Positions 9,827-36,847 of a stretch of 64,000 nucleotides of DNA are shown piece by piece. The stretch lies in assembly GCA_026417415.1 (NCBI GenBank), contig JAOADG010000008.1:310001-374000 (forward strand), in the 5' to 3' direction. The notes below the pieces were generated by a model, which saw only the letters and a program-made list of their open reading frames with translations, was not told where the DNA came from and did no database searches. The position numbers were made by a program, and so were the translations under genes. Each line of letters begins with the position of its first letter. The stretch's first letter is position 1. This DNA is from a bacterium (GTDB taxonomy: Bacteria > Electryoneota > JAOADG01).

Positions 9827-11221
9827 TCAAATGTTTATTGCAAGACCGTACGCTGCTCCTGCCGCTTCTTTAATTGCCTCTGAGAGTGTAGGATGACTAT
9901 GTATCGTATGATGAATAAAATGTCCTGTTGCCTCTGCTGTTTTGGCAATACTTAATTCACCAATCAACTCACCTGCATCTGAACCCAACAAATGAGCACC
10001 TAATAGTTCACCATACTTTTCTTCAAAAATCAGTTTTACTAAACCCTCAGTTTCACCAGCAGCACGTGCTTTACCATTGGCACTAAAGGGATACTTTCCA
10101 ACTTTGTAACTAATTCCACGTTCTTTAACTTGCTCTTCTGTTAAACCAATGCTGGCAAATTGAGGTTGGCAATAAGTCACTGCAGGAATTAGTTCGTAAT
10201 TGACTGGGTGTGGATTTAGAGCGGCCATATGTTCAACTGCATGGATACCTTCTGTACTTGCAGCGTGAGCCAACCAAGGTGCTCCAATGCAGTCACCAAT
10301 TGCATAAATGTTTTCCACAGAAGTTTGATAATCCGAATTCACTCGAATAGAACCTTTTTCAACTTGAATTCCAAGTGCTTCTAATCCCAGATTTTCCACA
10401 TTTCCGGTAACACCGATGGCTAACAAAGCCAATTCGGCTCGAACGGAATCTTCTTTATCGCCACTAACCCATTGTACAATAACTTCATCACCATCCACTT
10501 GGATATTTTTGACCATTGAATTCACACGTACATCAATCCCTTGCTTTAGAAAACTTTTGGTTAACAGTTCACCTAATTCAGCATCTCCTGAAGGAACTAA
10601 ACGGGGTAGCATTTCAAGTTGAGTAACTTTGGTTCCAAAAGCATTGTAGAAATAAGCAAATTCAGAACCAATGGCTCCACCACCAATAATAACCATGGAT
10701 TTAGGTTGTTGTGGCAATGACATCGCTTCGTGACTACCGATAATTTTCTTGTGATCCAATCGTATATTTGGGAGTTCTTTTGTGCGGGCACCGGTTGCTA
10801 ATAGGATAAATCGGCTACTGTAAGAATTGGTTTTTCCCTCCGTACTTGTTACGGTAACTTCGTTTTTTCCACTTACGACACCACGACCTGAAAGATGTTC
10901 TAATTTATTTTTTTTAAATAGAAATTGAACTCCACGCATTGAGATATCTGCTACTTTACGTGATCGCTGAATGATTGCATTCCAATCGTAATGAATATTT
11001 TCTGCAGATAGCCCATAGTCCTTAAGATGTTTCAAATGTTGATACATTTCTGCCGATTTCAAAAGAGCTTTGGTCGGGATACAACCCCAATTAAGACAAA
11101 TCCCACCTAAATGTTTTTCTTCTACGACGGCAGTTTTAAGTCCCAATTGACTTGCACGAATGGCTGCTTCATAACCACCCGGTCCTGCACCAATCACAAT
11201 CAAGTCATATTGATAAGACAT
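9827..11221 (-). CDS. lpdA: Dihydrolipoyl dehydrogenase (E3)
   Basis: FAD flavoprotein of 464 aa that reoxidises dihydrolipoamide of the 2-oxoacid dehydrogenase complexes or the glycine cleavage system. Seen: FAD Rossmann motif GAGPGG (11-16), redox disulfide C42 and C47 in GGICLNWGCIPTK, NAD-binding GGGAIGSEFA near 180, and the C-terminal catalytic H443-P with E448. Length is standard. A strong AAAGGAG site precedes the ATG. It heads the minus-strand operon and is divergent from the glutathione peroxidase gene, so about 100 bp must hold both promoters. No E1 or E2 gene is nearby, so the partner complex must be encoded elsewhere. Confidence 0.95.
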   Translation of the reverse strand: MSYQYDLIVIGAGPGGYEAAIRASQLGLKTAVVEEKHLGGICLNWGCIPTKALLKSAEMYQHLKHLKDYGLSAENIHYDWNAIIQRSRKVADISMRGVQFLFKKNKLEHLSGRGVVSGKNEVTVTSTEGKTNSYSSRFILLATGARTKELPNIRLDHKKIIGSHEAMSLPQQPKSMVIIGGGAIGSEFAYFYNAFGTKVTQLEMLPRLVPSGDAELGELLTKSFLKQGIDVRVNSMVKNIQVDGDEVIVQWVSGDKEDSVRAELALLAIGVTGNVENLGLEALGIQVEKGSIRVNSDYQTSVENIYAIGDCIGAPWLAHAASTEGIHAVEHMAALNPHPVNYELIPAVTYCQPQFASIGLTEEQVKERGISYKVGKYPFSANGKARAAGETEGLVKLIFEEKYGELLGAHLLGSDAGELIGELSIAKTAEATGHFIHHTIHSHPTLSEAIKEAAGAAYGLAINI

Positions 11222-25141: not shown

Positions 25142-25597
25142 ATGAAAAAGAAAATTTCGAAAAATGCTGCAAATGAAGATAAAATCGTGTATTCAAGCAA
25201 CTCTTCTACTCCTGATGAAAATCCGTTTTCTGTCTTAAAATCTTTTTTTCCAGAACATACTCTCGGAAGCGATACAAACAATGATCCAGTAGAAACATCA
25301 ATCATTGAACCAGAACAGAAAAACGATATTTTTTTAAGTTTAAAAGAAAAAACCATCTATATTAGTAAATCAAAATCTAATCGTTCAGGGAAAACGGTTA
25401 CCATTTTGAAATGGAAAGATGCCAACGAACCCAACCTATCACAACTAGCACGCTTGATTAAAACTAAATTAGGTTGTGGAGGTGGTGTAGAAAACGATGA
25501 ACATCAAAATAAGCCGATGATTGTTCTCCAAGGAGATTTACGTGAAAGGGTAAAATCACTATTGGAATCGCATCATATTAAAATCAAATTATCATAA
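25142..25597 (+). CDS. SUI1/eIF1-family (YciH-like) translation factor homologue
   Basis: Protein of 151 aa. The first 80 residues are polar and probably disordered; residues about 90-151 form a SUI1 domain, with SGKTVTILKW, the LxRxIKTKLGCGGGVE block and IVLQGDLRERVKSLL matching the bacterial YciH/eIF1 pattern. Bacterial members are thought to affect start-codon fidelity, but their role is not settled. The long N-terminal extension is unusual relative to YciH (about 108 aa). The start has a TAGGAGA site 6 nt upstream. gyrB follows after 100 bp of very AT-rich DNA. Confidence 0.75.
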   Translation: MKKKISKNAANEDKIVYSSNSSTPDENPFSVLKSFFPEHTLGSDTNNDPVETSIIEPEQKNDIFLSLKEKTIYISKSKSNRSGKTVTILKWKDANEPNLSQLARLIKTKLGCGGGVENDEHQNKPMIVLQGDLRERVKSLLESHHIKIKLS

Positions 25598-25682: not shown

Positions 25683-27662
<1,980 letters not shown>

Positions 27663-27679: not shown

Positions 27680-28468
27680 ATGCAGTTACCAAAATTAGAA
27701 ACAGTTAAACTCAAAGTCCAAGAAAGCATTTTAGAAATCGTTTTAAGCCGTCCTGAGGTAATGAATAGTTTTAATGATCAGATGGGAAAAGAACTCCTAT
27801 CTGCACTCCAATTGGGAAAAAAAGAGAATGAAATACGAACGATCATCATCACAGGAGAAGGAAAAGCGTTTTGTGCAGGCGAAGATCTCAAATCATTGAC
27901 TCAAACACAAGCACCATTAGGAAATATTCTACGAAATCGTTACAATCCAATGATTACATTGATGCGTGAAATTGAAAAACCAATCATTGCAAAAGTCAAT
28001 GGTGTCGCTGCAGGAGCAGGTGTATCATTAGCAATGGCATCAGATTTTCGTATTGCAGCAGAACATGCAAAATTTATAATGGCATTTATAAAAGTTGGGC
28101 TCGTACCGGATAGTGGTGCACATTGGTTTTTACCGAAGATGATTGGAATGGCACGGGCGTTTGAGTGGATGGCTACAGGAGATACCATTGATGCAAAGAA
28201 AGCGCTGGAATGGGGAATCGTAAATCAAGTTGTACCTTATGAACAATTAGATGAAACCGTTTTAAAGTGGGCAAAAGCGTTTGCGAGTGGGCCTACGAAA
28301 GCATATGGATACATTAAAAGGGGACTTATGAAAGCACTTGATTCTAATCTGCATGAAACTTTGGAGTACGAGGCCTATCTTCAGGAATTAGCAGGAAATA
28401 CTGAAGATCATAAAAATGCTGTGAACGCGTTTATAGAAAAACGTGAACCCACATTTCAAGGAAATTAA
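27680..28468 (+). CDS. Enoyl-CoA hydratase/isomerase, PaaG-like (1,2-epoxyphenylacetyl-CoA isomerase type)
   Basis: Crotonase-fold enzyme of 263 aa. Oxyanion-hole segments are FCAGEDLK (64-71) and GVAAGAGVSLAMASDFRIA (108-126). The catalytic segment GLVPDSGAHWFLPKMIG (140-156) has Asp144 and the PDSGxxWxLP pattern typical of PaaG, which isomerises ring 1,2-epoxyphenylacetyl-CoA to oxepin-CoA and also acts on enoyl-CoAs. ATG 27680 is preferred: GGAG at 27669-27672 is 7 nt upstream, whereas ATG 27662 (overlapping the gyrB stop) has no ribosome site. A PaaA-like gene lies 0.6 kb downstream, which supports a ring-cleavage connection, but other 2-enoyl-CoA substrates remain possible. Confidence 0.8.
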   Translation: MQLPKLETVKLKVQESILEIVLSRPEVMNSFNDQMGKELLSALQLGKKENEIRTIIITGEGKAFCAGEDLKSLTQTQAPLGNILRNRYNPMITLMREIEKPIIAKVNGVAAGAGVSLAMASDFRIAAEHAKFIMAFIKVGLVPDSGAHWFLPKMIGMARAFEWMATGDTIDAKKALEWGIVNQVVPYEQLDETVLKWAKAFASGPTKAYGYIKRGLMKALDSNLHETLEYEAYLQELAGNTEDHKNAVNAFIEKREPTFQGN

Positions 28469-28480
28469 CTCGAGAAAACA

Positions 28481-28768
28481 ATGAATATTGCAATTCGCAC
28501 TCTAATTTATCGTGATGGAAAAAATATCATAGCACATACACCTGAATTGAATTTGTCTTCATGGGGTTCCACGAAAGATGAAGCAATGAAAAATTTGAGA
28601 GAAGCCGTTCAATTGTATTGTGAAGCTGCTAAAGAAGAAAATGAACTAATGCAAGTACTCGAAGATGCAGGTTACGGATGTGACCAAATAACAAATGTCT
28701 GGCATCCACCTGAACTAATTGAACTACAAGAGATAGAGGTAGAAATCCATGAAGACAACAACAATTAG
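28481..28768 (+). CDS. hicB: HicB-family antitoxin-like protein
   Basis: Protein of 95 aa with the partial RNase-H-like fold of HicB: a strand with DGKNIIAHTPELN, LSSWGSTKDEAMKNLREAVQLYCEAA and an acidic tail (about 70-95). HicB antitoxins neutralise HicA, a small mRNA interferase, and autoregulate; no ribbon-helix-helix or HTH DNA-binding domain is seen in this copy. It overlaps the HicA-like gene by 20 bp, as expected for a toxin-antitoxin pair, here in the order antitoxin-toxin. It sits 12 bp after the PaaG-like gene. Confidence 0.75.
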   Translation: MNIAIRTLIYRDGKNIIAHTPELNLSSWGSTKDEAMKNLREAVQLYCEAAKEENELMQVLEDAGYGCDQITNVWHPPELIELQEIEVEIHEDNNN

Positions 28769-29075
28769 TGGAAAATTAGTAGTTCGTGCATTAGAATTAA
28801 ATGGATATGTTCAAAAAAAAGTAAAAGGCAATCACATTCTTATGACAGGATATAAAGGGGGTAATTATCTGGTAATACAAGCCAATGGAGAGATACCTTC
28901 TTTTCATCTTATGAATGTTTTATCAATGTCCGGAATTCCGAGAAAGGTATTTTTTCAATCGCTTGCTAAAGTAAAATCCAAAATGGAACGATCAGAATCA
29001 CTTTTTACAACAATTTTTTCCAAGAAAAACAAGGAGCAAGTACCAGAAAAGAAACGACCAAAAAGTTTAAACTAA
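28749..29075 (+). CDS. hicA: HicA-family mRNA-interferase-like toxin
   Basis: Protein of 108 aa. Residues 5-65 match the double-stranded RNA-binding-like HicA fold: SGKLVVRALELNGYVQ, then KGNHILM with the probable catalytic His29, then LVIQANGEIPSFHLMNVLSMSGI. HicA toxins are usually 60-85 aa; this one has a further 40 basic residues ending KKRPKSLN. GxH has Asn before His where Ser is common. AGAGGT lies upstream inside hicB, so the two are co-translated. Whether it is an active toxin or a domesticated regulator cannot be read from sequence. Confidence 0.7.
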   Translation: MKTTTISGKLVVRALELNGYVQKKVKGNHILMTGYKGGNYLVIQANGEIPSFHLMNVLSMSGIPRKVFFQSLAKVKSKMERSESLFTTIFSKKNKEQVPEKKRPKSLN

Positions 29076-29092
29076 ATGAATAGGGGGAAATC

Positions 29093-29902
29093 ATGATTGA
29101 ACGTGTAACTAAGGAACCACTTCGTGTTCGCGAAGAAAGAATGCTTGCAAAGCTCGAAAGCAACGAGCCCATTGAGACGCCTGATGAAATGTCTGATGAA
29201 TATTACCAACATCTTTGCAATTTATTATTTATGCAAGCAGACAGTGAGTTGGCTGGGGGGTTCGGATATATGCCTTGGATTGCAAAAGCACCAACCATTA
29301 CCGAAAAATACAACGTATCCATTATTGTCAAAGATGAAATTAGGCATGCCTACGCTTGTTACAACTTATTAGAAAAATTGGGTGTACCTGTGGAAGATTA
29401 CATAAAACAAAACGACTTTATGTTAAGAGATTTTGAACACAAAGATTTAGGTACACAACGGTTAGCAAGCGATAAGCGAGTAAATATTTTTTACTATCCT
29501 ATAAATACTTGGGCTGATTTTGTGATGTTCAATTTTTGTATGGATCGTGGTGCAGGGCATCAACTGGAAGATGTGAAACATTGTAGTTATGGGCCTTGGG
29601 CTAGAACCATTGAAGGGATCTTTCGCGAAGAGATGATGCATGTAGGTCACGGAGAAATGTGGGTCGAAAAATTTGCCAAACAATCCCCAGAAACTAAAGA
29701 AGAAATCCAAATCGCTTTGAATACATGGTATCCAAGGACGATGAATATCTTTGGCAAAAGCAATTCTAAGAAGAATGCTGAATACCGAAAATTCAAATTA
29801 AAGTTACGTGATAATGGTGAGGTCCGTGAAACCTACAAGCAGGAAGTGAAAGTATTGGTAGAGGATTACGGTTTAGAACTTCCTGATTGGAAAGAACAGT
29901 AA
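29093..29902 (+). CDS. PaaA-like diiron oxygenase subunit (phenylacetyl-CoA epoxidase family)
   Basis: Ferritin-like protein of 269 aa aligning from memory with PaaA, the catalytic subunit of 1,2-phenylacetyl-CoA epoxidase. All six carboxylate/His ligand positions are present: E52 (DSELAGG), E82 and H85 (KDEIRHAY), D151 (FCMDRGAG), E180 and H183 (REEMMH). APT (67-69) and YGPWAR (166-171) are further PaaA-type blocks. A strong AGGGGG site precedes the ATG and a terminator hairpin follows the stop. The PaaG-like gene is upstream, but paaB, C, D and E are not here, so it is either one part of a scattered pathway or an orphan diiron enzyme with another CoA substrate. Confidence 0.8.
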   Translation: MIERVTKEPLRVREERMLAKLESNEPIETPDEMSDEYYQHLCNLLFMQADSELAGGFGYMPWIAKAPTITEKYNVSIIVKDEIRHAYACYNLLEKLGVPVEDYIKQNDFMLRDFEHKDLGTQRLASDKRVNIFYYPINTWADFVMFNFCMDRGAGHQLEDVKHCSYGPWARTIEGIFREEMMHVGHGEMWVEKFAKQSPETKEEIQIALNTWYPRTMNIFGKSNSKKNAEYRKFKLKLRDNGEVRETYKQEVKVLVEDYGLELPDWKEQ

Positions 29903-31411: not shown

Positions 31412-34400
31412 TTACTGTGAATTTTTTACTGGTTCAGGTCGGTATTCACCAATTCCAAGTGGAATAAAACGATAAAGAATAGGTCCATTTAAAGTTTGGT
31501 TAAATTTCTGAATCTGCAAATCGTTTTCGGTTGGTAGAATACGCACAATCGGTTCACTTTGTAAGTCAACATTTTCTGCAAGAATTGCGGTAACTCGATA
31601 ATACAAAGCTGGGAAATTATTTGTTTGCGTCTCTAACCAAGTGGTCAATGTAGAAGGTATAGCATCCACCAAGTTGGTACCGTTCAGAGTATCAGGATTA
31701 AAATGTCCTGTAGTACTACGATAGATACCATACCAATTATAGGTACCACCAGGAGCTTGCCAATTCAAGCGATAACCAGAACCTTCACGAGTAATGGTCA
31801 AATTGGTAGGTGCTTGTGGTGGATTAATTCCGTTGCCTTGTAAGGTAAAATTGTATGGATTTTCATCACTATCTGTATTCCCAAAACTTAATGTGCCAGT
31901 ATGAACACCATGGGTTGTTGGAGTGAAACGAACTACAAAAGTCGTACTGCTATTTGCATTGATTGTAGTATTGGGTTGAGTGATTACACTAAACGCACCT
32001 GTGGTGGAAACAGGTGGATTATCCGTCAATTGCAACGGTCCCGTTCCCAAATTTTGTATGGTAAATGTAACATCAGTAGTTTGACCTACCAATCGTGAAC
32101 CAAAATCCACCAAACCTGTATTGTCAGGGACATTAACTCCATTGACTTGTACATTCACTTCTGGGATTTGATTTGTGACATTCAAAGTCACCGGTACTGT
32201 ATATGGTGTGTTCGCCGCATTCCCAGAAAATACATATGAACCAACCAATTGAGTACCATTTGCAAATGATCCAGTTCGCCAAGTCACCGAGAATTGAATT
32301 GCACTATTGGAAGGAATTGAAAAGGTAGTTTGACTGGGTTCTGCCCATCTTGCTGAATGTCTAAATCGAATGGCGTGATTTACGGGTATAGGTACATCCA
32401 CATATACATTAATGTATTGTGTTGTACTCCCTTGAACTCCAACAGTAGTGTATTGATCATTGACAACGTTTTGGCCATATTGCATAATAATTGTACCATC
32501 TGAATAAAGAATCACTTGAGCACTTATATTCGTTGAAGATTGTCCCCACCTTTGAACATTATTCCAAGAAAAAATTGCACGGTTGTTTGGTGCATCCATA
32601 AGAACTCTTGTATTTCCAGAACCCGTTACATTCAAATCATCATAAAAAACGGCAAGTAGCGTTTGGAAACGAGTATCCGGCAATGCTGGGCTGTTGTAAT
32701 AGTTCGCAGTGGTTGAATTAAATGTAATCCAACCATTCGTGCACATCCATACTTGCGAATAATTATTTCCATAAAATGGAAAACTAAACGGCAAAGTAAA
32801 TGGTCCGGTGGTTGCATCATCACCGGTAGGTCCTGCTGTTCCAGAAGCAGTATTTACCCAAGAATAAACAGGTCCACCAACATCATTGCTGGTTTGATAA
32901 CCAAAACCACCTGTTCCTGTATTTGCCGTTAATGTTCCTGTAAATGCAGCATTTCCAGTATTTTGAAGAGTTACTGTTTGGATAAAAGAATCACCCGGGG
33001 CTAATGATCGTGTTAACGGGTTAGGTAAAAAATTCAAAATGGGACGATCAAAAATTACAAAGGGACCATCCGAATCATCTACAAATTGACCGTTAGTTGA
33101 ACTGATACGAATTCTTGCATTATTCGTAAGTGGATTTGTGACCAGCCAGTTTTCAGAACCATCATTTGCAGTATTTTCAAACAAACGTTCCCAAGTTCCA
33201 GTAGGATAATTACGATTGAGATCAATATGAACATTGGGCACATTGGGTATTCCTCGCCAGCGGATTGTGTAACTCGTACTCACTGCTAAAGAATCACCGC
33301 CATTAGGAGAAATTACGCGTAACAACGTATCTGATTGAGTAGTCGTGAATAAAATCGCTCGGTTAACATTTGTTCCGTTGGATATCGGACTTGAACCCGA
33401 AGTGTACTGATTGTAATAAGAATACTCGATAGCACGGGTGTATGTCTGATCTGCGATCCCAATTGTCGCATAATCGGTATCGTTAATATCACCAGTTACG
33501 TTATTAAAAGTACGGTATTGGAACAGTATCTTTGAATCACCTGTGGGAGTTGGATGATAAATAGGATCATAAATAATGATTTGAAATTCGTTCGGTTGAT
33601 TTCCACCAAAAGTAGTAACACAATTCCACGTTAAAATATATCTACGATTAGACGAATCGTAATATCCGTAAACCCCATGTGTAGAAGTACTAAACATTAG
33701 ATCATCCCAAAATACAGCAAGGATATTACGTGGTCCTTCATTAGCAGGCAAATGCCAGTTGCGAAAGTTGTTGTAATAGGGTTGCCATCCAAATGCTGCC
33801 CATCCGTTGGAACATACAGTCAACTGATTATAGGTCTGACCATAATAAACTGCAGTAAAAGGTAAATTGACTTGGATGTTTGCATCTTGATTTTCTCCAC
33901 CATCATTCAAATTTAAACGATTTGCAGTTTGAACAATATCTACCCAACTAAAAATCGGGGCTTGGGAGTAAGCAACATCCGTATTGTCATAAGCGTAGTA
34001 CCCATAAGAATCTGGACCAGTTGGATCTGTAGTAGAACGTGTACCTACAGGTAGAGTAAAGGTGACCGTATCACGCATGGAACCGTTAACAATAGCAACA
34101 CGAAATTGAACATTTGTTCCCGGAACAATAGTTGTACTAGCGCTCACATTCCAACGATTGTTGGCATCATTGACCACTTGTGTACCGACAGGCATGGTTG
34201 GAAAACTGACGGTAGGATTAGAAATCGTGATTCCAGGATAAAAGCAAGATAAAGTAGCATTCACTGTCCCACTGGTAGAAAGACCGCCGTTGTTAATTAA
34301 CTGAGTTGATAATTGGACAGAACCTCCTGGATTCAAACTGCTTGCGCCATTCAATACATAGTTTACAAAATTGACCTTGATAGATCGAATAGGTAACAGA

Positions 34401-36805
34401 ACAGAAAGCGATCGATTCCCTTGTGAAGTCGTTAAATCTAATCGAAGTGCAATCGTATCTTGATCATTAAGTCCTGCTAAAGCCTGTACACGAAAACGAT
34501 CACCAGATTGAGAAGCTCCGCTATTGATGTTTGACCAATTGGAATTCCCTAATAAAACAACGATACGTGGATCTTCAGAAACCAGTGTACCGCTTATATT
34601 CGTTGCAGTTGCAGTTCCCCTATTGAGTAAGGTAACCGTAAATTCAACGGTTTCTCCGGGATTTGTTTGGCCATTGCTGTTCCCGACAGTCCCATTCACA
34701 TTATCGTCATCAATCGCAGAGATAGATTGAACCGTTAAATCTGAGGCATTTTGTGTAATTGAAACATTTTGAACGATTGGAAAGTAATTCTGATAGGATT
34801 TCAAGTTACTTATAGTAACCAACATAGTCCCGGTGGTTTGATTGGTTAAGTACAAAACAGCACGACCTGCGTTATCCGTTACTGCGCGATAATACGTTTC
34901 AGTTGTACCAGAGGCATTTTTCTTCCAAGCAGTAACCAATACTTCGTTAACAGGAACGGTACCTTGGGTAACGGTTATTTCTAAGCGGTTGATTCCTAAA
35001 CCTAAAGTGGAAGGAATATTAGCCGTTAAAGTTTGTGGTACACCAGACCATAAGTTCGCTGTCGGATCACCCATCAAATTATTCCAATATGAAAAATTGC
35101 TAACGTTTGCTGATTGACCGATAATGTAATTTCGCCATAATTGATATTTTCCGGACCATAACATCGGTCCCGGTTGATGAAGCGCTTGAATTCCGTATCC
35201 GTAATAAATTCCAGTTGCCACAACATTATTGTAATTGGGGTGTGTACTTGAAGTTGCTGTAGCAACAGAAGCAATAGCACCTGTTGGTGCTGACGGTGAA
35301 CCTAATCGAACCAAAGATTCGTTTAAACCGGTTCCAGAAGTCCAATTTCCTGTAGCGCAAGTGATACTAAAACTAACAAAAGGACGATTGTAATTGGTTA
35401 ATGAGCTGACATTTGACTCCGATATTTCACCTATCCACGCTGCTCGATGTGCCCAATTTACTGCACCGTTTCCCAATCGCTGATTGATTAAAGCAGTACT
35501 CACTGCACCATTATGTTCATCATAATAAACTTCTGTAACACCATGCATGAGCATCATATCGTTACAAAAACGGATGGCAGGACGATTAGAAAGCACACCT
35601 TGAGCAACACCTGCATAACCCCAACCACGTTTGAACCATGTAGTATCTGTCATGTCCGGAGTTTTTTCATAGTTGACGGAACGGTTTACAATGGTTTGGA
35701 GTTGAGTTGCATTGGCAACAGAAAATCTGCCTAATGTGATATCACCAAGAATATCACCACCTGCTAACTGTGTATAATTGTGATCAGTGTAATTACTGGA
35801 ATTCCCTGCTGGTATTGCAAAGTCGCCTGAAGTACCATGATCCCCAACGATAATCACATATTCTAAAGGAGGATTCCAAGTATTGTAAGCATTTTGGATT
35901 ACACTCAGTACATCACTTGAACTCGATCCTGCACCTGAAGGTGGTAAAATGGTTGTTGGGCGGCCACTTTGAGTTTTCCAATCTGCAAAAGGTTGTATAA
36001 TGTTCATTACCGTTGTGGATGTGCGAGAAATAATTAGAATAGAACCTGGTTTAGCAGTTTGGCTTTCTAATACCAAATCATCTGCTCCAAGGATGTCCCG
36101 ATAAAAGGCAGCAAAACTCGGAACAGGACGAGTAGGACCAATCAATTCATTTTCACCAACACCACCTATGGGTAAAATCTCTACTTCTACCTCTTCATAG
36201 ACCCGAACTACACGTGTGACTGGATTGTATTGAACGGGTTGTAAAGCTAACACTGCAATACGTGCATCACGAAGAATAGCCGGTTCACTCACAGTAGTAA
36301 TTGATTCAGGATACCATCCATCATGATTGTAGCATTCAATATTTATAGTAAATGGAAATTCTTTGTAGCCCCGTTCTTTTTCTTTAAACTCAGGAAAAGG
36401 CTGTTGGGGTAAAACATCCATTCCTTCATAATCTTTATAAACCGCGCGATGAACAAGAACTTTGATATTCCCTTGATTTGGAAGTCGTACAGCGCGTTTT
36501 ATAGAAGGTAGATTGGGATCACCAACACTCCATATTCTCGATTCACCATCAATGGTCACAAATGTCCATTCGCGTTTATCTGCTAAAACTTGTTCAAAAC
36601 GAACTTGAGGATTTAGAAATTGAATCCGAAGATGACCGATTCCTAAAACTTCTGAGTGTACTTGTACCGAATTCTCAACGCGAAGACCTTGGTCAATATC
36701 GTCTTCAGTTGTCCAATTTCTTAACGTTGCAAAGGTTGGGAAAACAGGAACAAAAGAAAGAAAAACAAAAAGAAGGCGTGCAAAAAGCGCTTGTATGGTT
36801 TTCAT
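31412..36805 (-). CDS. Gingipain-like C25 cysteine peptidase with long beta-sandwich tail
   Basis: Secreted protein of 1797 aa: signal peptide 1-26, a C25 propeptide (about 50-215), and a catalytic domain (about 250-610) with PPLEYVIIVGDHG, a probable catalytic His453 (NWAHRAAW) and Cys483 (SITCATGNW). After it come CARDB/NEW3-like domains (700-925), a beta-sandwich domain at about 934-1153, a second copy at about 1299-1484 (both share an N-G-W stretch then LLAVFxDDL), a choice-of-anchor-D domain (1549-1657) and a fibronectin-III-like domain (1660-1760). It ends without a recognisable type IX sorting domain, unlike the subtilase at 4397. ATG 36805 has AGGAG upstream and starts at the signal; the in-frame start at 36841 has neither. 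Confidence 0.8.
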   Translation of the reverse strand: MKTIQALFARLLFVFLSFVPVFPTFATLRNWTTEDDIDQGLRVENSVQVHSEVLGIGHLRIQFLNPQVRFEQVLADKREWTFVTIDGESRIWSVGDPNLPSIKRAVRLPNQGNIKVLVHRAVYKDYEGMDVLPQQPFPEFKEKERGYKEFPFTINIECYNHDGWYPESITTVSEPAILRDARIAVLALQPVQYNPVTRVVRVYEEVEVEILPIGGVGENELIGPTRPVPSFAAFYRDILGADDLVLESQTAKPGSILIISRTSTTVMNIIQPFADWKTQSGRPTTILPPSGAGSSSSDVLSVIQNAYNTWNPPLEYVIIVGDHGTSGDFAIPAGNSSNYTDHNYTQLAGGDILGDITLGRFSVANATQLQTIVNRSVNYEKTPDMTDTTWFKRGWGYAGVAQGVLSNRPAIRFCNDMMLMHGVTEVYYDEHNGAVSTALINQRLGNGAVNWAHRAAWIGEISESNVSSLTNYNRPFVSFSITCATGNWTSGTGLNESLVRLGSPSAPTGAIASVATATSSTHPNYNNVVATGIYYGYGIQALHQPGPMLWSGKYQLWRNYIIGQSANVSNFSYWNNLMGDPTANLWSGVPQTLTANIPSTLGLGINRLEITVTQGTVPVNEVLVTAWKKNASGTTETYYRAVTDNAGRAVLYLTNQTTGTMLVTISNLKSYQNYFPIVQNVSITQNASDLTVQSISAIDDDNVNGTVGNSNGQTNPGETVEFTVTLLNRGTATATNISGTLVSEDPRIVVLLGNSNWSNINSGASQSGDRFRVQALAGLNDQDTIALRLDLTTSQGNRSLSVLLPIRSIKVNFVNYVLNGASSLNPGGSVQLSTQLINNGGLSTSGTVNATLSCFYPGITISNPTVSFPTMPVGTQVVNDANNRWNVSASTTIVPGTNVQFRVAIVNGSMRDTVTFTLPVGTRSTTDPTGPDSYGYYAYDNTDVAYSQAPIFSWVDIVQTANRLNLNDGGENQDANIQVNLPFTAVYYGQTYNQLTVCSNGWAAFGWQPYYNNFRNWHLPANEGPRNILAVFWDDLMFSTSTHGVYGYYDSSNRRYILTWNCVTTFGGNQPNEFQIIIYDPIYHPTPTGDSKILFQYRTFNNVTGDINDTDYATIGIADQTYTRAIEYSYYNQYTSGSSPISNGTNVNRAILFTTTQSDTLLRVISPNGGDSLAVSTSYTIRWRGIPNVPNVHIDLNRNYPTGTWERLFENTANDGSENWLVTNPLTNNARIRISSTNGQFVDDSDGPFVIFDRPILNFLPNPLTRSLAPGDSFIQTVTLQNTGNAAFTGTLTANTGTGGFGYQTSNDVGGPVYSWVNTASGTAGPTGDDATTGPFTLPFSFPFYGNNYSQVWMCTNGWITFNSTTANYYNSPALPDTRFQTLLAVFYDDLNVTGSGNTRVLMDAPNNRAIFSWNNVQRWGQSSTNISAQVILYSDGTIIMQYGQNVVNDQYTTVGVQGSTTQYINVYVDVPIPVNHAIRFRHSARWAEPSQTTFSIPSNSAIQFSVTWRTGSFANGTQLVGSYVFSGNAANTPYTVPVTLNVTNQIPEVNVQVNGVNVPDNTGLVDFGSRLVGQTTDVTFTIQNLGTGPLQLTDNPPVSTTGAFSVITQPNTTINANSSTTFVVRFTPTTHGVHTGTLSFGNTDSDENPYNFTLQGNGINPPQAPTNLTITREGSGYRLNWQAPGGTYNWYGIYRSTTGHFNPDTLNGTNLVDAIPSTLTTWLETQTNNFPALYYRVTAILAENVDLQSEPIVRILPTENDLQIQKFNQTLNGPILYRFIPLGIGEYRPEPVKNSQ

Positions 36806-36847
36806 AGTAACTCCTAAGCATCTCCAGCATGAAAAAACCATAAAGAA

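Follow-up and report, generated by a model that had tools for sequence, protein, structure and literature searches.

A PaaG-like crotonase gene and a gene for a PaaA-like diiron protein lie close together in the 64,000-nucleotide stretch of bacterial DNA analysed here (the window), separated by two small overlapping genes. The arrangement raises the question of whether the two enzymes belong to a phenylacetate pathway whose parts are split over the genome, or whether they act as a stand-alone pair on some other CoA thioester. The features concerned are the following.

25142-25597: SUI1-like gene, upstream of gyrB
25698-27662: gyrB, directly 5' of the crotonase gene
27680..28468, + strand: PaaG-like crotonase, candidate ring-1,2-epoxide isomerase; ATG start; Pfam ECH_1 8e-67, above the cut-off
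28481..28768, + strand: HicB-like protein of 95 aa with just the N-terminal HicB-type domain and no recognisable DNA-binding tail
28749..29075, + strand: HicA-like protein of 108 aa with a C-terminal extension; a KGNH stretch holds the conserved His
29093..29902, + strand: stand-alone PaaA-type diiron protein (PF05138), candidate arylacetyl-CoA epoxidase
after the PaaA-like gene, opposite strand: DUF1015 gene

The first-pass annotation had the crotonase gene following gyrB at once and the HicB/HicA-like genes overlapping by 20 bp; both points hold, as gyrB ends at 27662 with the crotonase starting at 27680, and the overlap spans 28749-28768. An alternative TTG start for the crotonase at 27659 would overlap gyrB. 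The PaaA-like protein matches Pfam PaaA_PaaC (PF05138) above the cut-off (7.8e-41, 140.4 bits), and its top NCBIfam model is PaaA (TIGR02156), with 122.6 bits against an equivalog cut-off of 280. The top NCBIfam model for the crotonase is PaaG (TIGR02280), with 251.3 bits against a cut-off of 345.15. As both scores fall below the NCBIfam cut-offs, the two proteins are relatives of PaaG and PaaA rather than certified members. A search of viral contigs gave no match. The order crotonase-HicB-HicA-PaaA also occurs in a sister genus (genome G001, locus L010) and is thus not due to chance, with identities to the window proteins of 59% (crotonase), 52% (HicB), 38% (HicA) and 75% (PaaA-like). The comparison with related genomes that had been proposed therefore bears out the four-gene order but not the gyrB neighbour, which is absent from the sister genus; the link to gyrB is not conserved and looks coincidental. 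Also in the window, at 31412-36841 on the minus strand, is a gene for a 1809-aa protein that by eye resembles a secreted C25-type (gingipain-like) peptidase.

The AF2 model of the PaaA-like protein (mean pLDDT 95.1) matches PaaA best (3pw8_C, Z 28.6, 1.7 A over 243 residues, 29% identity), followed by SSO1313 (Z 26.5), PaaC (25.2) and BoxB (22.3). The six ligand positions read earlier from the sequence (E52, E82, H85, D151, E180 and H183) align with the diiron ligands of E. coli PaaA given in PMC4498308 (E42, E72, H75, D126, E155 and H158), and they are invariant in all 83 relatives aligned; five of the six positions vary among the six PaaC rows. F133 is also kept in 83/83 and corresponds to E. 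coli F108, the residue that sets the orientation of the phenyl group (PMC4498308); the position of E. coli K103 is mostly kept (60/83). In the lysine bridge of PaaA, as described in the same source, K68 contacts E49, E72 and D126, with a suggested role in electron transfer. The E72 and D126 positions are retained in the stand-alone clade. At the E49 position (window Tyr59) all 83 relatives have Tyr, and at the K68 position (window Ile78) 80 have Ile and three Met; canonical PaaA proteins have Glu at E49 (9/9) and Lys at K68 (9/9). Judged from the aligned residues, the bridge is broken by the replacements E49 to Tyr59 and K68 to Ile78, so that the chemistry or the entry of electrons could differ. 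Retention of F133 together with loss of the bridge would fit a ring substrate whose turnover uses an altered route for electrons or protons.

Phylogeny likewise separates the protein from canonical PaaA. In a tree of 55 rows, the 37 stand-alone rows form one group (support 99/99), the eight canonical PaaA rows a second (100/100) and the six PaaC rows a third (100/100), and the rows outside these three groups are on long branches. The split between stand-alone and canonical proteins persists without PaaC and the long lone rows. The PaaA-like protein is a member of the PaaA-type family in a separate clade outside canonical PaaA, and is not PaaA itself. The tree placement called for at the outset thus confirms a PaaA-type protein while moving it out of the canonical PaaA clade, BoxB being compared by fold and profile only.

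Among relatives of the host the gene is sparse, as seven of 61 genomes searched, the own genome included, have a match, and two of the seven (G045 and G056) are distant and carry canonical paa genes. The phylum mates G008, G013 and G038 encode the crotonase, the PaaA-like protein, a DUF1858 protein and a Rieske protein, with an aldehyde dehydrogenase (ALDH) slightly further on; the G038 contig (L011) is identical to L072. When named GTDB genomes were scanned with a five-sequence alignment, 101 places were confirmed, the best 80 of which (45-63% identity) were used, and among these matches the clade is found in many phyla. Of 51 genomes with the stand-alone gene (47 of the 80 named loci and four G genomes, many of them MAGs of uncertain completeness), PaaB is absent from 47 and a single PF05138 gene is present in 37, among them the complete Tumebacillus avium chromosome (L084, which is G102). 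Ten have extra PF05138 matches, mostly weaker, and no PaaB, and four (G095, G096, G098 and G100) also hold canonical PaaA, PaaB and PaaC. The firm stand-alone cases in this set are the own genome and the complete T. avium chromosome.

Gene neighbourhoods were compared over 84 loci, comprising the window, L010, L012, L013 and the best 80 of the 101 places. HMMs made from operon members served to count the neighbouring genes that run in the same direction within 6.5 kb, and as many contigs end inside that range the counts are lower bounds. Among the 84 loci listed, a crotonase is encoded in at least 54, a PaaH-like 3-hydroxyacyl dehydrogenase (HADH) in at least 46, a short 3HCDH protein in at least 44 (the models for these two partly match the same ORFs), a DUF1858 protein in at least 35, an ALDH in at least 34, a thiolase in at least 24, an EthD protein in at least 18 and a PaaK-like protein in at least ten. 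PaaB, PaaD and PaaE were found within 6.5 kb in none of the 84 (PaaE by a one-sequence HMM); the PaaC model matched all 84, as it recognises the PaaA-like protein itself. By type, the crotonases are PaaG-like in 50 of the loci listed, PaaF-like in 46 and BadI-like in four, and in 45 of the 84 a PaaG-like crotonase gene ends upstream, no more than 600 bp from the PaaA-like gene. About four crotonase links would be expected by chance among 84 windows of about 13.8 kb, a rough figure that takes the own genome, with its seven crotonases in 2.21 Mb, as the baseline for all. PaaX is encoded in three of the 84, once above the cut-off (267.7 against 264.55) and twice just under it (254.7 and 254.0). 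Two PaaK-like proteins of relatives that were scored lie below the curated cut-off of 646.3 (600.0 and 519.5).

The layout EthD-ECH-ECH-PaaA-HADH-HADH2-thiolase-ALDH is recurrent in Bacteriovoracaceae, with close variants in Tumebacillus, Elusimicrobia and Ignavibacteria. Beside the operon of Tumebacillus lacus are genes for the PaaX above the cut-off, an amino-acid dehydrogenase and oxoacid dehydrogenase E1/E2, neighbours that suggest a route from phenylalanine via phenylpyruvate to phenylacetyl-CoA. Three or more pathway genes are present in 12/12 of the loci listed from Bdellovibrionota, 13/16 from Elusimicrobiota and 5/6 from Ignavibacteriota, in 2/9 from Bacillota and in 0/13 from Rokuibacteriota. 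No pathway gene is nearby in 17 of the 84 loci listed; in these, and in the four of 51 genomes that also carry canonical paaABC, the protein may have a different role. At L085, L086, L087 and L091 the upstream border of the Bacteriovoracaceae operons is a long gene, by eye an indolepyruvate oxidoreductase, together with an HPPD-like gene, suggesting an island for aromatic amino acid breakdown. A 549-aa gene in the Ignavibacteria operons was considered as BoxC and set aside, because by eye its start reads as that of an exported protein.

The own genome (G000; 2.21 Mb in 40 contigs, 100% complete) has a single match to PF05138, the PaaA/PaaC family, and thus neither a PaaC nor a second gene of that family by this search, although the same model does detect PaaC in G095, G096, G098 and G100. 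PaaB (PF06243) has no match, with three control genomes matching, and PaaK (TIGR02155) has none. The search first suggested for paaB, paaC and paaK therefore finds paaB, paaK and a second PaaA/PaaC-family gene all missing, and the genome contains no distant complete paa operon with a closer PaaA, the finding named as fatal to the phenylacetate interpretation. Homologues of the lower pathway (isomerase, ring hydrolase, ALDH, thiolase, hydratase and dehydrogenase) are present in five places. An EthD-crotonase-crotonase cluster is on contig C19, its second crotonase PaaF-like (341.3 bits against a cut-off of 371) and its first nearest to BadI/MenB, far under the cut-off. A HADH pair on contig C9 is 49% identical to the Tumebacillus PaaH-like protein, a thiolase on C29 shows 58% identity, and an ALDH on C27 is 52% identical to that of G008. 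All of these resemble operon members, from which we infer that these very copies would serve a phenylacetyl-CoA pathway. On contig C9 (L114 9230-9928) the PaaH-like gene is followed by one for a short protein in which just a 3HCDH C-terminal domain is recognised, and related operons show the same.

Given the above, the locus is rather likely to represent a variant phenylacetyl-CoA route with a stand-alone PaaA-type epoxidase. The PaaA-like protein, as a diiron oxygenase of the carboxylate-bridged type, would convert phenylacetyl-CoA (or a close arylacetyl-CoA) to the epoxide with no need of PaaB and PaaC, and isomerisation to the oxepin would fall to its PaaG-like neighbour. Enzymes encoded elsewhere in the genome may then follow, with a BadI/MenB-like crotonase opening the ring, an HpaE/BADH-type aldehyde dehydrogenase oxidising the semialdehyde, and a PaaF-like hydratase, a PaaH-like dehydrogenase and a PcaF/PaaJ-like thiolase finishing beta-oxidation. 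Without PaaK, an oxoacid dehydrogenase or oxidoreductase could supply phenylacetyl-CoA by acting on phenylpyruvate. Of the two original readings, the split paa pathway stands as to parts scattered over five genome places but not as to the epoxidase, which has no PaaB and no second PaaA/PaaC protein beside it; the stand-alone diiron/crotonase pair stands as to the epoxidase, but the evidence favours a blend with a split phenylacetate pathway. Counted in favour of the variant route are the ligands and F133 in 83/83, the separate clade, the absence of PaaB, the single PF05138 gene, the pathway neighbours and the parts in the own genome; counted against it are the need of the E. coli enzyme for PaaA, PaaB, PaaC and PaaE (PMC9493321 and PMC4498308), the lost lysine bridge, the loci with no pathway gene nearby, the genomes that also carry canonical paaABC, the NCBIfam scores below cut-off, and an own genome lacking PaaK and an operon-type Rieske protein.

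Electrons for the epoxidase might come from an unlinked ferredoxin or reductase, or from a small Fe-S partner such as the DUF1858-type CxxC protein or Rieske protein of relatives. Small proteins resembling DUF1858/ScdA_N, below Pfam cut-offs, are encoded in 35 of the 84 loci listed, 31 of the 35 with a CxxC motif. In three of the four cases without it a Rieske gene is directly downstream (L012 10987-11325, L013 about 10303-11067 and L072 3546-3884), and a Rieske ferredoxin may possibly replace the CxxC protein as electron carrier. These three loci are from close relatives, so that they may reflect one event in one lineage and give only a hint. In the window neither a DUF1858 nor a Rieske gene is linked to the PaaA-like gene. 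The own genome has one DUF1858 homologue, with a CIGC motif, far away among unrelated genes (C38:613996) and probably generic; its matches to the operon-type Rieske protein are weak (24% and 22%), one of them by eye inside a SUF operon. No electron donor was identified for the window protein, and no reductase gene is linked to it.

The HicB/HicA-like pair probably has no catalytic role and is incidental, a co-transcribed toxin-antitoxin module or its remnant. The HicA-like protein scores 19.9 bits with Pfam HicA_toxin (cut-off 27), and the HicB-like protein 26.6 bits with DUF7387 (cut-off 27.9) and 16.8 with HicB_lk_antitox (cut-off 27), all below; weak PDB matches are to HicB 6g1c (E 0.0041) for the latter and to 1whz (E 0.04) for the former, whose His aligns with that of 1whz and is kept in the L010 copy. 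The identity of the pair is accepted despite the Pfam scores because gene order, overlap and the weak PDB matches agree. Like type II HicBA systems, it has overlapping genes, a HicA-type His and a HicB-type N-terminal domain, but its proteins lie below Pfam cut-offs, the HicB-like protein is without a recognised DNA-binding domain, and the pair interrupts two catabolic genes, an arrangement confined to two sister genera. Between the window and L010 the HicB- and HicA-like proteins have changed more rapidly than the enzymes, yet their position is kept. The suggestion of a toxin pair inserted between the diiron and crotonase genes fits, as only these two of the 84 loci listed carry it and it is missing from the other 82 (a weak HicA match in L066, E 0.069, was left out of the count). 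The HicB-like protein was considered as a stand-in for PaaB and dropped, being HicB-like and confined to two genera.

The alternative that survives best, though an unlikely one, is that the PaaA-like protein is a stand-alone diiron oxygenase for another CoA thioester (4-hydroxyphenylacetyl-CoA, indoleacetyl-CoA, benzoyl-CoA or a fatty acyl-CoA) whose product the crotonase processes. The swapped residues of the lysine bridge, an HpaD-like dioxygenase gene in one Acidobacteriota locus (L019), the four of 51 genomes with canonical paaABC and the indolepyruvate oxidoreductase (by eye) and HPPD-like genes bordering Bacteriovorax operons would suit it, but PaaX and PaaK-like genes occur in three and ten of the 84 loci listed, the usual upstream gene encodes a PaaG-type crotonase, and the phenyl-orienting Phe is kept in 83/83. 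For benzoyl-CoA the comparison is with BoxB (PDB 3PER/3PM5/3PF7), which is likewise a diiron epoxidase of a CoA-bound ring with a related fold (Z 22.3) and is not known to need PaaB/PaaC-type subunits; its chains, however, have 470-480 aa, the window protein scores 33.1 bits against the TIGR03225 cut-off of 499.1, and the context of a PaaG-type isomerase does not fit the box pathway. It is improbable that the protein is a non-catalytic or accessory PaaA paralogue, serving as scaffold or in iron handling while the pathway runs otherwise. PaaC does show that the fold can be structural (PMC4498308), and a linked reductase gene is lacking, but the six ligands are invariant in contrast to those of PaaC, and the gene is the sole PF05138 gene in 37/51 genomes. 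An ordinary PaaABCE epoxidase with its other subunits elsewhere or missing from the assembly has PaaA homology and fold on its side and is hardly tenable, being already contradicted by a 100% complete own genome and a complete T. avium chromosome without PaaB or a second PF05138 gene, by the distinct clade and active-site pair, and by the four genomes with PaaB, each of which has its own canonical PaaA beside it.

The variant route with a stand-alone epoxidase can be set against systems already known. Compared with PaaA of the PaaABCE 1,2-phenylacetyl-CoA epoxidase (E. coli, PDB 3PW8/3PVR), the window protein shares the fold, the six ligands, F108, mostly K103, a PaaG-type crotonase neighbour and the pathway context, but it has no PaaB/PaaC, is about 40 residues shorter than the 311-residue PDB chain, lacks the lysine bridge, belongs to a separate clade and stays at 122.6 bits against the equivalog cut-off of 280. 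SSO1313 of Sulfolobus solfataricus (PDB 4MUD, by its entry title) has the same PaaA-type fold, a Tyr at E49 and a hydrophobic residue at K68, but it is 24% identical and lies outside the stand-alone clade on a long branch of unsure placement; our literature search found no functional paper on it. In the literature, paaA, B, C and D are reported to occur together in 25/25 cases (PMC2653477), PaaA plus PaaC are used to mark the pathway in genomes (PMC13186573), and KSB1 clade I is reported to have PaaA, B and H while most other paa genes are missing (PMC9012183). The text of PMC13186573 makes no mention of Rokubacteria, Tumebacillus, Bdellovibri-, Ignavibacter-, Elusimicrob- or Bacteriovor-. In a literature search covering the main texts of open-access papers, no description or assay of the stand-alone clade was found.

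More tentatively, and perhaps too broadly, the clade may stand for another way, spread over many phyla, of building the aerobic phenylacetyl-CoA route, with a single-subunit epoxidase, a Tyr/Ile pocket, no PaaB/PaaC, and a DUF1858-type CxxC protein as electron source, replaced in one lineage by a Rieske ferredoxin. If the stand-alone epoxidase is real, surveys using PaaA and PaaC as markers would overlook the pathway in groups such as Rokubacteria, Elusimicrobia, Ignavibacteria, Bacteriovoracaceae and Tumebacillus, and the enzyme would offer a minimal system for studying the purpose of PaaB, of PaaC and of the lysine bridge. Strain names are given for T. avium and T. lacus, so a direct test in cultured bacteria looks feasible.

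Elsewhere in the family, the Rokubacteria genome G078 has six PF05138 matches and no PaaB. Its lone PaaA/PaaC-family proteins (L122 826-1644, minus strand; L122 4137-4850, plus strand; L125 832-1560, minus strand), two of which are encoded next to crotonase genes, lie outside the main clades on long branches.
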